Shown piece after piece: positions 22,845 to 34,870 of a stretch of DNA of 38,270 bases. The notes beneath the pieces are model-generated. The model was not told the origin of the DNA. It did no database searches and saw only the letters and a program-made list of their open reading frames with translations. The position numbers and the translations under genes are program-made. This DNA comes from an uncultured Alphaproteobacteria bacterium. Lineage in GTDB: Bacteria > Pseudomonadota > Alphaproteobacteria > HIMB59 > GCA-002718135. The stretch covers positions 1 to 38,270 of the forward strand of contig CACJWQ010000010.1 of the NCBI GenBank assembly GCA_902597015.1, written 5' to 3'. Each line of letters begins with the position of its first letter. Positions within the stretch are counted from its first letter, which is position 1.

Positions 22845-24167
22845 TTATCTAGCTAAAGCACCCATTGGATCCCAAGGTGCTAGCGCTACTGGTTCCATAT
22901 CTAAGTATTTTAAAAGTCTTTTGTTTAGATATTTTTTATCGATGACTACTTCATAGGTATATTCATCAAACCATTCATCGGTCATCATCATATATCCTTG
23001 ATTACCACTTTTCGTTCCCCAGCTATTCTCAATTTTCCATTTTGTTGAATTTCTTTTTTTAATATCAACACCTGTTAAAAGCATGGCATGAGTCATTTCA
23101 CTATCACCATACTCTAAACGAGTTTGTTTATTCATCTTAAATGAAGTTTGGAAGACATTTTCATAGTCGTAAATGCCCATATCAAGTACACCCATATCAC
23201 GACTAAAACGTTTCCCAACATCACAACCAAACCACACAGCTTCATTGTTTTTTATTGAGTCCATCGCAGATTTTTTTAATTCTTTAATATCTACATTTAA
23301 ATATTTAATAATTTGTCCCTCAACAACATTACCAAGATATTCAACTGTGTACATTGTGTTAAATTTTTTATTGCTCATTGGAGCATGAATTAAGCAAACT
23401 TTATCTTTAATATTGATATCAGCATATTTTTTACAGAAGTCAATCGGTGTCATGTCTGAAATAACGATGTGTCTATTATCTTTATTTCTAGTAGACCAAT
23501 TGATAACATCTGGGGGTTGACCAAGAAACATTGCCAGTAAATTATAGATTGTTTCCATCATATCTTTTTTTAGAGCTGCAGAGTTTTTTGCTGGTTTTTT
23601 TCTTAGTATAGAAGCAAACTCTCTTAATTTGTGAGTCAAGATATAATTCATAGCACCAGATTTACTGCTATGATTTGTTTCAGGCATTACATCTTTAGGT
23701 ACTGCACCATACTTATTAATTAAGTTTACAAACATATCCCACTGTCCGCCATCTTGCACAGGTGCTTTTAAAAGATGAGTTATTAATCTGCTTTCATATG
23801 CTTCATCTCTTGATTTGATAATATTCTCTAAAAAATAATTTGCTTTCTCTAACTTATCCCAAAACATGAAATAATTTTGTGAAAACTCAAATGTATTTAG
23901 TTCAAGGCTATCAACAACTTGCAAACGCATAAGATTTAATCCTGCAAATCCCCAACATCTACCCGATGCCATTTGGTTTGTTGCAGGTAATTCTTTTTTA
24001 ATTAGATTAGAAAAATTATGATTGATTTGACTAAAGTTTTCCCAATTGAGTGCAACATTGGCTAAATCATTTTTTATCAATGCATTTCGTGAAGCTATAT
24101 TTTTATTATTTCTTAAAAATTTATTTTTGAAAGTTCTTATTGTTGATAAAGATATATTTTTAGCCAT
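22845..24167 (-). CDS. pepC: Aminopeptidase C / bleomycin hydrolase (peptidase C1B)
   Basis: A cytosolic cysteine aminopeptidase, 440 residues, papain fold. Nucleophile Cys71 lies in NQMASGRCWGFAGLNLMR, with His360 in SEMTHAML and Asn381 in KIENSWG. The C-terminal tail APWDPMGALAR corresponds to the arm that enters the active site and makes the hexamer an aminopeptidase. No signal peptide is seen. The family is widespread in lactic acid bacteria, Bacteroidetes and eukaryotes and patchy in alphaproteobacteria, so acquisition by transfer is possible, though base composition looks like that of its neighbours. It lies 30 bp after topA and probably shares transcription with the small protein downstream. 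Confidence 0.95.
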   Translation of the reverse strand: MAKNISLSTIRTFKNKFLRNNKNIASRNALIKNDLANVALNWENFSQINHNFSNLIKKELPATNQMASGRCWGFAGLNLMRLQVVDSLELNTFEFSQNYFMFWDKLEKANYFLENIIKSRDEAYESRLITHLLKAPVQDGGQWDMFVNLINKYGAVPKDVMPETNHSSKSGAMNYILTHKLREFASILRKKPAKNSAALKKDMMETIYNLLAMFLGQPPDVINWSTRNKDNRHIVISDMTPIDFCKKYADINIKDKVCLIHAPMSNKKFNTMYTVEYLGNVVEGQIIKYLNVDIKELKKSAMDSIKNNEAVWFGCDVGKRFSRDMGVLDMGIYDYENVFQTSFKMNKQTRLEYGDSEMTHAMLLTGVDIKKRNSTKWKIENSWGTKSGNQGYMMMTDEWFDEYTYEVVIDKKYLNKRLLKYLDMEPVALAPWDPMGALAR

Positions 24168-26788: not shown

Positions 26789-27394
26789 TTACTTGGATAA
26801 TTTAATTTTACTTTCAGTTTTGTTTATGAGTCTTTTAATGTTTTCTGTGTGTTTAAGAAAAATAATTAAAGTCAAATAAATAAAGAAAATTAGAATATAA
26901 AAATTAAAATTAATAAAAAAATAATAAGCTGGCGCTACTAAAATTCCAATTAAAGATCCAAGAGAAGAGTATTTACTTACAAAAGCAGTAACAAGCCATA
27001 CTAATAAAAATAAAATTGCAATGTAAGGGTTAAAACCAAATAAGAAGCCAATATACGTTGCTACTCCTTTTCCACCTTTGAATTTTAACCAAACAGGATA
27101 AATATGACCTAAAATCGCAAAATGACAGAGAAGTATTTTATTCAATAAAGAAATATCTTGAAAATACATTTGTAAAATGACGAATGGAAGAAAGCCTTTA
27201 AAAATATCAAAACAAAGAACAATGAATGCTAAAAATTTATTTCCTGTTCTTAAAACATTTGTTGCACCTACATTGCCAGAACCAACCTTTCTAATATCTC
27301 CCAAGCCAAATAATTTTGTAAAAATCAATGCAAAGGGTAATGATCCTATTACATAAAAAAATATGATTAATGATAAACTACTTACTAAAGTCAT
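26789..27394 (-). CDS. plsY: Glycerol-3-phosphate acyltransferase PlsY
   Basis: Inner-membrane enzyme that acylates glycerol-3-phosphate from acyl-phosphate, the first step of phospholipid synthesis. The 201 residues have about five hydrophobic segments and the three family motifs: GSLPFALIFTKLFGLGDIRK, then VGSGNVGATNVLRTGNK, and LKFKGGKGVATYIGFLFGFN. It starts inside the end of pyrB (17-bp overlap) and lies 65 bp before topA. In many relatives dprA sits between plsY and topA; it is missing here. With pgpA elsewhere in the window it belongs to phospholipid synthesis. Confidence 0.96.
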   Translation of the reverse strand: MTLVSSLSLIIFFYVIGSLPFALIFTKLFGLGDIRKVGSGNVGATNVLRTGNKFLAFIVLCFDIFKGFLPFVILQMYFQDISLLNKILLCHFAILGHIYPVWLKFKGGKGVATYIGFLFGFNPYIAILFLLVWLVTAFVSKYSSLGSLIGILVAPAYYFFINFNFYILIFFIYLTLIIFLKHTENIKRLINKTESKIKLSK

Positions 27395-28523
27395 CTCTGT
27401 TTTTAATAATTAAGTCTAAGCATGCCATACGTACAGCAACACCCATAGCGACTTGTTCTTGTATTAAGCTCCTCGTGACGTCATCGGCAAGTTTAGAGTC
27501 TATTTCTACACCACGATTCATTGGGCCTGGATGCATAACGAAAGCATTTTTTTTTGCATATTTAAGTTTATTGTAATCTAATCCATATTTTTTAAAATAA
27601 GTCTTTTGATTTGGCATTATTTTCCCAACAATTCTCTCTTTTTGAATACGTAGCATCATAACAATATCACAATTTTGTAATCCCTTTTTCATCTCCGTAT
27701 AAACATTCACAGGAAGTTTTTTTAAACTTTTTGGTAACCATTCCTTAGGACCAATAACATTAATTTTTGCACCTAGTTTTGAAAGTATGATTATGTTTGA
27801 TCGAGCAACCCGGCTATGTAAAATATCACCACATATAGCAATTTTTAATTTTGAAAAATTTTCAAATTTATTTTTTATAGTAAGTGCATCTAATAACGCT
27901 TGTGTGGGATGCTCATGACTACCATCACCAGCGTTAATTACAGACGCATCTACTGATTCTGAAATTTTTTTACTAATTCCTTCCTCCGGATGTCTGACAA
28001 TTAAAACGTCAGGATTCATTGAATTAATAGTAGTCATAGTATCGAGTAAGGTTTCACCTTTATTTATAGAGCTATCTTTTACAACTACATTAATGAGATC
28101 TGCTCCTAACCTTTTAGCAGCAACTTCAAAACTTGTTCTTGTTCTTGTTGAATCTTCAAAGAATAGATTAAATATTGTTCTTCCTTCTAGAATATTTGTT
28201 TTTTTATTTTTCCTTTTATTAAAAGTTATATATTTTTTAGATTCATCTAAGATGTGCTCAATTTCTTTCTTGGTTAAATCAGCTGTTTCTACTAAATGAA
28301 TTTTTTTAAAAATATTTTTCGTTCGTTTTAATTTTATATTTGTTTTTGAATAAATTGATGAATAATATTTTAAAGCTATATTTTCAGCATCTTTAAGAAT
28401 TTTTGAACCTGTAGAGGATCTGATCGCTTTTAATTTTGGCAATTTAACTTTCATTTGCCAATATTTTGAATTTTCTCTTTTGTATAATTTTATGTGTCCA
28501 GATTTAAGTAACTTTGAATTCAT
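27378..28523 (-). CDS. pyrB: Aspartate carbamoyltransferase with an N-terminal integrase-like extension
   Basis: Catalytic chain of the first committed step of pyrimidine synthesis (carbamoyl phosphate + aspartate). From about residue 75 the protein is canonical: FFEDSTRTRTSFEVAAKRLG (carbamoyl-phosphate loop), SSINKGETLLDT, VIRHPEEG-type sequence (here VRHPEEG), NAGDGSHEHPTQALLDALTI and HPGPMNRGVEID. The first 74 residues do not belong to the family, whose members begin near HLVETADLTKKEI. They read GHIKLYKRENSKYWQMKVKL followed by IRSSTGSKILKDAENIALKY, like the start of a tyrosine recombinase. No ATG/GTG/TTG was found between extension and enzyme. I chose ATG 28523 rather than TTG 28532. 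Total 381 residues versus about 305-320 usual. Confidence 0.94.
   Translation of the reverse strand: MNSKLLKSGHIKLYKRENSKYWQMKVKLPKLKAIRSSTGSKILKDAENIALKYYSSIYSKTNIKLKRTKNIFKKIHLVETADLTKKEIEHILDESKKYITFNKRKNKKTNILEGRTIFNLFFEDSTRTRTSFEVAAKRLGADLINVVVKDSSINKGETLLDTMTTINSMNPDVLIVRHPEEGISKKISESVDASVINAGDGSHEHPTQALLDALTIKNKFENFSKLKIAICGDILHSRVARSNIIILSKLGAKINVIGPKEWLPKSLKKLPVNVYTEMKKGLQNCDIVMMLRIQKERIVGKIMPNQKTYFKKYGLDYNKLKYAKKNAFVMHPGPMNRGVEIDSKLADDVTRSLIQEQVAMGVAVRMACLDLIIKNRDDFSK
28302..28523 (-). other. Segment encoding the integrase-arm-like N-terminal extension of PyrB
   Basis: About 74 codons with the pattern 'lYKRxxSxYWqxxvxlPxxxxiRxSTGsKxxxdAxxxAxxyy'. This is the layout of the N-terminal DNA-binding (arm/SAM-like) region of phage-type tyrosine recombinases: basic start, an aromatic YW pair in a beta strand, an R-x-STG turn, then an alanine-rich helix. 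The rest of a recombinase, including the catalytic R-H-R-Y domain, is absent. The identification rests on pattern memory, not on a search. Confidence 0.6.
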
Positions 28524-28550
28524 ATGTGTCAATAATGTGTAAGTATGTGT
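28524..28550. repeat. Three helically phased ATGTGT repeats upstream of pyrB
   Basis: ATGTGT occurs at 28524-28529, 28535-28540 and 28545-28550, with offsets of 11 and 10 bp, so all three face the same side of the helix. On the pyrB coding strand the units read TTTACACAT, CTTACACAT and TTGACACAT, the last abutting the ATG. They fill the 38-bp gap between ruvX and pyrB. Possible arm-type recombinase sites, operator sites, or a coincidence of the -35-like TTTACA/TTGACA sequences. Confidence 0.6.
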
Positions 28551-28561
28551 AAACTAATTTA

Positions 28562-29020
28562 TTAATTATTTCTATATCTATCTAAATATCCTTGTAAGAT
28601 ATAAGCAGCTGATTGTTGATCAAGTTTACTTTTTATCTTTGTTTTACTTAAATCGGCTTTTCTCATTTCTTTAAAGATTACATCTGATGAAAATCTTTCA
28701 TCCCAAAGAGCGGTAGGTTTTTTAAAAAAGGCTTGAAGATTAATATTAAAATCTCGTACTAATTGGCTTTGTTTATTTTCAGTATTATCCAGGCTAATCG
28801 GCAGACCAAGAATAAATCCACCAATTTCATACTCATTCAAAATATCTTTCATGATGTTCAAATCTTTCTTAGTTCCTTTTCTTTGGATAATTGAAAGCGG
28901 TGTAGCGATTATTTTCGATCTATCACTTACAGCAACGCCAATCGTTTTAGTTCCTAGGTCTAGACCTACAAGTATTTGTGATGTATTAAGTCCATCGATT
29001 AAATTATTTTGATCATTCAT
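28562..29020 (-). CDS. ruvX: RuvX/YqgF-family Holliday-junction resolvase-like nuclease
   Basis: RNase-H-fold protein involved in pre-16S rRNA 5' processing in E. coli and proposed as an alternative junction resolvase. The 152 residues begin near ILVGLDLGTKTIGVAVSD (first acidic residue), then GGFILGLPISLDNTENKQSQ, LWDERFSS, and KSKLDQQSAAYILQGYLD with the last acidic residue. I chose the ATG at 29020. A TTG at 29059 would add 13 residues outside the domain and overlap the divergent gatC start. The ruvX/gatCAB neighbourhood is a conserved alphaproteobacterial feature. Confidence 0.93.
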   Translation of the reverse strand: MNDQNNLIDGLNTSQILVGLDLGTKTIGVAVSDRSKIIATPLSIIQRKGTKKDLNIMKDILNEYEIGGFILGLPISLDNTENKQSQLVRDFNINLQAFFKKPTALWDERFSSDVIFKEMRKADLSKTKIKSKLDQQSAAYILQGYLDRYRNN

Positions 29021-29025
29021 ATAAT

Positions 29026-29029
29026 GGAG
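29026..29029 (+). promoter_or_regulatory. Shine-Dalgarno GGAG for the TTG start of gatC
   Basis: GGAG lies 8 bases before the TTG at 29038 and supports that codon as the gatC start. It is located within the 17-bp gap to the divergent ruvX start. Confidence 0.55.
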
Positions 29030-29037
29030 CTCATAAA

Positions 29038-29325
29038 TTGAAGATTGATAAAAATACAATAAATAAAATTGCCCGTCTATCTAGAATAAAGTTAGATGAT
29101 AAAGAATCTGAAGATTATATTAATGATCTTAATTCCATTTTAGACTGGGTTGAGCAATTAAATGAAGTAAATACCGAAGATGTAGAACCATTAAGTAACA
29201 TATCATCATCGATTTTACCTAAAAGAGAAGATGTATCGAAAGATACTAATTCGAGTGAGGAAATTCTTGAAAATGCTCCTGATAAACTTGAAGGTTTTTT
29301 TGCAGTACCAAAGGTGGTAGAATAA
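29038..29325 (+). CDS. gatC: Asp-tRNA(Asn)/Glu-tRNA(Gln) amidotransferase subunit C
   Basis: Small subunit that stabilises GatA on GatB in the heterotrimer that converts mischarged Glu-tRNA(Gln) (and Asp-tRNA(Asn)) to the correct aminoacyl-tRNA. The 95 residues show INKIARLSRIKLDDKESEDY, LNSILDWVEQLNEVNTEDVE, PLSNIS and the terminal LEGFFAVPKVVE, all family-typical. Start is TTG with a good GGAG. Only 17 bp separate it from the divergent ruvX start, so its promoter must lie within ruvX. It shares one base with gatA (TAATG). Confidence 0.95.
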   Translation: MKIDKNTINKIARLSRIKLDDKESEDYINDLNSILDWVEQLNEVNTEDVEPLSNISSSILPKREDVSKDTNSSEEILENAPDKLEGFFAVPKVVE

Positions 29326-34778: not shown

Positions 34779-34870
34779 GGAGAGATGGGTGAGTGGCTTA
34801 AACCACAGGTTTGCTAAACCTGCGAAGGAAGCAATTCCTTCCGAGGGTTCGAATCCCTCTCTCTCCGCCA
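34779..34870 (+). tRNA. tRNA-Ser(GCU)
   Basis: A 92-base class II tRNA. The acceptor stem GGAGAGA (34779-34785) pairs with TCTCTCC (34860-34866), followed by discriminator G and an encoded CCA (34868-34870). The anticodon stem CAGGT/ACCTG encloses the loop TTGCTAA with anticodon GCT at 34813-34815, reading AGC/AGU serine codons. The long variable arm (GAAGGAA...TTCCTTC) and T arm GAGGG-TTCGAAT-CCCTC are complete. The next gene, dapA, starts one base after the CCA. Confidence 0.98.

Follow-up and report, generated by a model that had tools for sequence, protein, structure and literature searches.

Aspartate carbamoyltransferase (ATCase) is a textbook enzyme for regulation. A pyrB gene of an uncultured alphaproteobacterium (HIMB59) raises the question of what an integrase-like segment might be doing at the head of its catalytic chain. 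The gene lies in a window of 38,270 nt (CACJWQ010000010.1; the whole stretch of DNA that was analyzed) from a 1.2-Mb genome in 58 contigs. A sequence-only reading of the window had proposed that an extension of about 74 residues, resembling the N-terminus of a tyrosine recombinase, is made as part of the enzyme. The features of the locus are collected in Table 1.

Table 1. Features of the pyrB locus, in coordinates of the window.
Feature	Position	Strand	Basis
pyrB ORF	27378-28523	(-)	ATG start, 381 residues
Extension, residues 1-57, integrase-type arm-binding-like domain at PyrB N-terminus	28353..28523	(-)	hhalign, AlphaFold2, dN/dS
Linker, residues 58-75, fast-evolving	28299..28352	(-)	dN/dS; pLDDT <50 at 66-72
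ATCase catalytic chain, residues 76-381 and stop	27378..28298	(-)	NF002032, TIGR00670, PF02729, PF00185
Box 3, TGACACAT, adjoins ATG	28524..28531	(-)	sequence
Box 2, TTACACAT	28535..28542	(-)	sequence
Box 1, TTACACAT	28545..28552	(-)	sequence
ruvX-pyrB intergenic stretch, 38 bp, mostly three-box array	28524..28561	(-)	sequence; ruvX ORF end 28562
ruvX, upstream neighbor of pyrB	28562..29059	(-)	ORF
plsY, downstream neighbor of pyrB	26789..27394	(-)	ORF

The ATCase models begin at residue 76 of the fused protein (TIGR00670 with E 1e-94 and NF002032 with E 4e-122), and it scores over their curated cut-offs, with 407 bits for NF002032 (cut-off 263) and 317 bits for TIGR00670 (cut-off 236.95). The core-binding and catalytic domains of a tyrosine recombinase are absent; the remainder of the chain is ATCase. 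From residue 29 up to the enzyme part there is no in-frame ATG, GTG or TTG, as the sequence-only reading had stated for the junction. An ATG at residue 24 and a TTG at residue 28 both lie within the extension, ATT codons stand at 71 and 75, and an in-frame TTG three codons 5′ of the pyrB ATG is not conserved in relatives. The structure model of the full chain was of moderate quality, with a mean pLDDT of 69, falling below 50 at residues 66-72. A tRNA at the ruvX-pyrB junction was considered and rejected, the sole tRNA of the window being located at 34779-34870. Elsewhere in the window the ORF at 22845-24167 (-) looks from its sequence like a bleomycin hydrolase-type aminopeptidase (C1 type).

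The fused gene is found throughout the family. A pyrB match (E 1e-60 or better) was present in 84 of 110 family genomes, and in 77 of these it is a single open frame of 384-406 codons, every one with a match to the extension (77/77). The remaining seven comprise one frameshift (G028), five genes cut at contig ends (G072, G030, G062, G011 and G012) and one unfused gene (G128); fragments of the extension alone were seen in G007 and G014. The fused form occurs in the genera labeled g1, g3, g4, g6 and g7. An assembly artefact is therefore rejected as the origin of the fusion, because 77 of the 84 genomes carry one open frame. In the sister family f2 a PyrB match was obtained in 21 of 24 genomes (E 1.1e-65 or better), in each case starting at query residue 66-80, and the extension is absent from all 21. 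Two unfused loci of the sister family (L071 and L072) have the same neighbors in the same order, ruvX-pyrB-plsY, the ruvX of L072 being read as an ORF in one pass and unmatched in another.

At least 80 loci were matched by the extension among the named genomes. Record titles among the matches listed include Pelagibacteraceae, MarineAlpha5 bins and uncultured Alphaproteobacteria isolate AG-..., AG- and AH- being labels of single-cell genomes. Two families are described for the HIMB59 order in PMC10734472, and PMC10308909 treats HIMB59, AEGEAN-169 and SAR11 subclade V as equivalent in its title; the word pyrB is missing from the main texts of both.

Selection was estimated by a Nei-Gojobori type of calculation on 24 fused genes, using 136 close, 21 close-far and 21 far pairs. 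Pooled dN/dS was 0.09-0.11 over residues 1-57, rose to 0.25-0.42 over residues 58-74 and was 0.04-0.06 in the enzyme part, with dS of 1 or more in most of the distant-pair sets. Residues 1-57 are thus under purifying selection, which suggests that the extension is translated and under constraint, with a loose linker behind it. This, together with the single open frame, agrees with the earlier claim that the fused protein is the product. Residues Y14, K15, R16, E17, N18, S19, W22, Q23, K27, P29 and R35 are invariant in 35 family sequences. The frameshift of G028 (L025/L132) falls between domain and enzyme, at about residues 60-71 in an A-rich stretch; either an error of sequencing or a natural division of the gene may account for it. 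Four loci (L146, L149, L151 and L152) have an in-frame ATG exactly at the enzyme start, so that a second, unfused product is possible there.

What, then, is the extension? Searched as a single sequence, residues 1-74 matched nothing in Pfam, PHROGs or NCBIfam up to E 1. When a family profile of the extension was run against 292 relatives there were three matches outside its own order (L068-L070; E 0.002-0.008), and all three are the N-termini of integrases. All three match PHROG integrase families, and two of them match PF13102 above its cut-off, although PF00589 remains below its own. The hhalign comparison of the extension with these three N-termini gave E 5.5e-9 with 95.9% probability over 48 columns, the partners having themselves been picked by the extension profile search and both alignments being of low diversity. 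The likeness to a recombinase proposed earlier is thus borne out by the family profile, where the single-sequence search was blank. These comparisons make the extension a homologue of the domain found at the N-terminus of one group of tyrosine integrases from Alphaproteobacteria.

The predicted structure lends weak support. The fold typical of an arm-binding domain is a sheet of three strands with a helix; AlphaFold2 modeled residues 1-63 with a mean pLDDT of 93.4, as strands at 2-6, 11-15, 23-26 and 34-37 followed by a helix at 43-61. In a VIA-align comparison with 905 PDB chains, where a Z of about 6 is suggestive only, 3rmp (P4-like integrases, attP recognition) came second (Z 6.1) and 3jtz (the arm-type binding domain of the HPI integrase) third (Z 6.0); the top place went to an unrelated chain of a methane monooxygenase complex (Z 6.4), and others followed at 5.7. 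The fold list also holds dsRNA-binding domains, for example 2l2n (Z 4.3). Foldseek gave nothing under E 0.001 for the extension model in the PDB or BFVD, although integrases took two of the top five places in the viral library (E 0.066 and 0.070, with probability 1.00). According to PMC8138268, the arm-binding domains of integrases have a common strands-and-helix structure and are frequent in phages and ICEs.

The curated Pfam arm-binding model gave no match for the extension; the integrase N-termini that were scanned (A8 rows 1-10 and L068-L070) likewise match no Pfam arm-binding model. No relative of the extension was found among PDB sequences, and phage records held none, nor any of the one integrase N-terminus searched. 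In viral contigs none of 83 pattern stretches was confirmed as a relative of the extension. DUF6538 was tried as the family of the extension and dropped: it matched one of eight members weakly (E 0.17), and in 61 genomes there was a single match, below the cut-off. No match to PF02899, the SAM-like integrase family, was obtained in the window's own genome. Inside the order, weak matches to the extension profile were seen in G157 of the sister family (24 residues, with a stop inside), and as second matches in G084 and G107 (residues 24-44).

Immediately before the fused gene lies an array of repeats. The 38 bp between the ruvX stop and the pyrB ATG contain the boxes TTACACAT, TTACACAT and TGACACAT at spacings of 10 and 11 bp, with the last box directly adjoining the ATG. 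Among the matches listed, all three boxes lie within one mismatch of TTACACAT in 64 of 80 loci and within two in 76 of 80, and the spacing, found within a preset search range, is 10+11 bp in 76, 11+11 in three and 9+11 in one. Across 30 diverse loci from the branch of the window, the majority base has a mean frequency of 0.961 in the boxes versus 0.833 in the spacers; the corresponding values are 0.843 for the ten bases upstream and 0.922 for the coding end of ruvX. An exact triple of ACACAT with gaps of 3-6 bp is found once each in 42 of 141 genomes, all of them in the window's genus (42/85), and in 42 of 42 it adjoins the pyrB ATG. It was found in none of 52 sister-family genomes, and the reversed pattern had one occurrence in total. 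Exact pairs of TNACACAT 1-5 bp apart are present at pyrB, and only there, in all nine family genomes tested; a pyrimidine regulon marked by exact box pairs is rejected at that stringency. A further ACACAT lies at 28492-28497, within codons 9-11 of the extension and 32 bases from the ACACAT of the box at the ATG, which is near three turns of DNA; it is not present in all relatives.

The sequence-only reading had supposed that pyrB captured the start of an integrase gene together with its promoter. The domain homology upholds the integrase-like character of the segment. For the promoter, a scan of the region found two promoter-like sites compared with 4.0 in shuffles, and none was recognized, so that the array could lie inside a ruvX-pyrB transcript. 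No Shine-Dalgarno-like stretch was seen by eye before the pyrB ATG. The leader RNA folds less than shuffled sequences (z +1.99), with 199 of 200 shuffles folding at least as well.

Similar boxes stand before integrases that share the domain. In two of the first three (L164, L165 and L166) there are TTACACA-type repeats 11 bp apart, no more than 60 bp from the start codon. When the three integrase N-termini were searched against 385 genomes of the class, 24 loci were matched, in 20 of the genomes. A pair of TTACACA boxes, allowing one mismatch per box and a separation of 10-12 bp, is present in the 200 bp upstream of nine of these 24, or of seven when near-copies are counted once, two of which prompted the test. 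The loci that are not independent are L178, L179 and L183, near-copies of one element, and L166 and L184, which lie in one genome; L176 and L183 look broken. The pair was found in none of 30 control integrases chosen as best by catalytic domain. Dinucleotide shuffles gave a mean of 0.06 and a maximum of one over 200 rounds, the other strand gave none and the reversed sequence two. Among 209 letter permutations of the box one reached nine and one eight, both being a shifted register of the same repeat.

The spacing can be detected without reference to the motif. A direct repeat of eight bases at offset 11 occurs in 17 of the 24 integrases versus three of the 30 controls, and at any other offset from 6 to 30 in at most six of 24. 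The seven without it by the script rule are L165, L169, L173, L175, L176, L177 and L182, and looser repeats were seen by eye in L169, L173, L176 and L177. A phylum-wide search of 398 genomes added 15 new loci (leaving out the window's own gene and the already counted L185, L218 and L222). The offset-11 repeat was present in five of the 15, all among the six best (E 1.7e-18 or better; L220 and L231 are near-copies), which is weaker than in the class set, and TTACACA pairs in three of 15. A tRNA gene lies somewhere in the locus in nine of 15 integrase loci picked from 39. In L167 the TTACACA box is present three times, at spacings of 11 and 10 bp, with tRNA-Met upstream. Three boxes were found by script in L167 and by eye in L171, L185 and L176, so that the number three need not reflect a trimer.

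The letters of the box vary before integrases, with TAGCACA, GGACACA and ACCAACAA as examples. L180 and L181 combine a more distant integrase N-terminus with 11-bp direct repeats of a ACCAACAA-type box, as if the box letters and the domain changed together. By eye, AGCACA-like boxes replace TTACACA in L169, L171, L172, L173, L174, L177 and L219. The serine of the YKRxxS motif is missing in five of seven of this AGCACA-box subgroup, and is possibly a residue of specificity. Of the roles that had been left to the extension (a harmless tag, DNA binding or assembly), DNA binding is favored by the upstream repeat array, which was absent from the earlier reading.

One family member has neither the domain nor the array. 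In G128 both extension and boxes are missing: pyrB begins 6 bp past the ruvX stop, and its first PyrB residues look, by eye, like the linker of its relatives. A tree of five proteins from 17 loci places G128 in one group with four fused members (98 UFBoot); a position as sister to those four is weakly supported (64). All ten remaining family members in this tree are fused as well. A basal position in the family was rejected (AU p 0.0085). The tree and the AU test thus rule out G128 as the ancestral unfused state, and on this phylogeny it is a secondary loss of domain and repeats together. One deletion suffices for the joint loss, because domain and array adjoin. The extension is present in both main branches of the family, so that the capture appears old, and appears to predate the diversification of the family.

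We think it probable that pyrB captured the arm-binding domain of an integrase along with its arm sites, and that the trimeric enzyme binds these sites and most likely represses its own gene. Before the family diversified, the start of an integrase gene with its upstream arm-type repeats would have come between ruvX and pyrB, and the integrase gene start would have been joined in frame to pyrB. The domain would have kept its specificity for DNA, and the repeats would have been kept as an operator. Carbamoyltransferase chains form trimers. The ATCase catalytic trimer would bear three arm-binding domains, each on a flexible linker some 17 residues long, and these domains could bind the three TTACACAT boxes before the start codon, one box each. 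The boxes are about one turn of DNA apart and therefore on the same side of it. Expression would most likely be blocked by protein bound right before the start codon, so that the bound trimer would most likely repress pyrB when the enzyme is plentiful.

Self-repression has precedent in the integrases. In the account given in PMC2951348, integrase genes with a promoter overlapping the att region, KplE1 IntS and some others, repress themselves, and self-repression is predicted there for a majority of tRNA-linked integrases. The same source reports that single arm-site mutations did not relieve repression by IntS, which counts against our reading. No PyrI (PF02748) was found over the cut-off in 110 family genomes, many of them incomplete, with a positive E. 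coli control and weak sub-cut-off fragments in eight of the 110; some other control of ATCase is therefore plausible. A further proposal, which we put forward tentatively and hold to be rather doubtful, is that the ATCase trimer acts as an allosteric repressor, its three domains resting on three helically phased boxes until carbamoyl phosphate and aspartate, filling the active sites, alter the trimer and free them. If so, precursor supply would be coupled to pyrB expression with neither PyrI nor a separate regulator.

The same association of domain and array would be expected if the bound enzyme served another end, by tethering ATCase to the region of its gene or by activating transcription. 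We regard this as unlikely, since every exact array (42 of 42) adjoins the start codon, a place where a block would be likelier than activation, and the integrase precedent, so far as it is set out in PMC2951348, is repression. Control might instead act on the mRNA, with the domain binding ACACAU repeats of the leader and blocking translation. The array does sit where a ribosome-binding site would be, and dsRNA-binding domains appear in the fold list; however, a leader less folded than its shuffles has no duplex on offer, and the similar 11-bp-spaced repeats before integrases belong to proteins whose arm sites are DNA, which makes control of this kind very unlikely.

It is distinctly unlikely, too, that the boxes form a promoter or translation signal that has nothing to do with the extension, the latter being conserved for something other than DNA binding, such as assembly or stability. 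The position of the array against the ATG of a gene with no visible Shine-Dalgarno-like stretch would suit such a signal, but similar boxes recur in other families of the class before integrases that share the domain and not in the controls, exact pairs occur nowhere else in the nine family genomes, and domain and boxes are jointly absent from G128. Finally, if translation began at a non-canonical codon at the enzyme (ATT 71 or 75), the extension would mostly go unmade. Those codons are available, and in four of 77 related loci there is an ATG at the enzyme start; yet the extension is under purifying selection as a protein, and in 69 of the 77 loci the stretch from residue 41 to the enzyme is free of ATG, GTG and TTG codons, so that we consider this extremely improbable.

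The fused PyrB can be set beside several known systems. With the arm-binding domain of integrases (HPI integrase, 3jtz, 3rmp) the extension shares N-terminal homology and nearby direct repeats, and seems to resemble it in a predicted order of strands then helix, whereas PyrB has no core-binding or catalytic recombinase domain, is fused to ATCase, and has no mobile element recognized around it. Class A ATCase is PyrB with PyrI; here the catalytic chain is the same, but an N-terminal domain of DNA-binding type is present instead, with no PyrI over the cut-off. PutA and BirA are enzymes with a fused DNA-binding domain. Trigger enzymes that regulate genes are known in the pyrimidine pathway itself, where PMC6245113 names PepA and PyrH at carAB. 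The likeness to PutA, BirA, PepA and PyrH is that a metabolic enzyme would also control genes, and the difference is that the domain and sites of the fused PyrB appear to derive from the integrase of a mobile element. As in the self-repressed integrase genes, of which KplE1 IntS is described in PMC2951348, sites of the type that relatives of the domain would use stand before the gene start, but the product is a metabolic enzyme and the repression a predicted one. Judged by its sequence, the fused PyrB fits a putative trigger enzyme with a domain of DNA-binding type and candidate sites at its own gene. Among the open-licence papers listed, none is on an ATCase-integrase fusion or a DNA-binding ATCase, judged by titles and the starts of abstracts. 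Trigger enzymes as such are known; by these papers, an ATCase that carries the arm-binding domain of an integrase, with sites to match, appears to be new.

The comparison also provides a recognizable box of TTACACA type, about 11 bp apart, for integrases whose scanned N-termini match no Pfam arm-binding model, and the fused PyrB and its boxes make a specific and easily testable protein-DNA pair. A core metabolic gene seems to hold both halves of a mobile-element switch, the domain that reads DNA and the sites that it would read, and both have been kept through the diversification of the family. This suggests a route to gene control for small genomes with few regulators.
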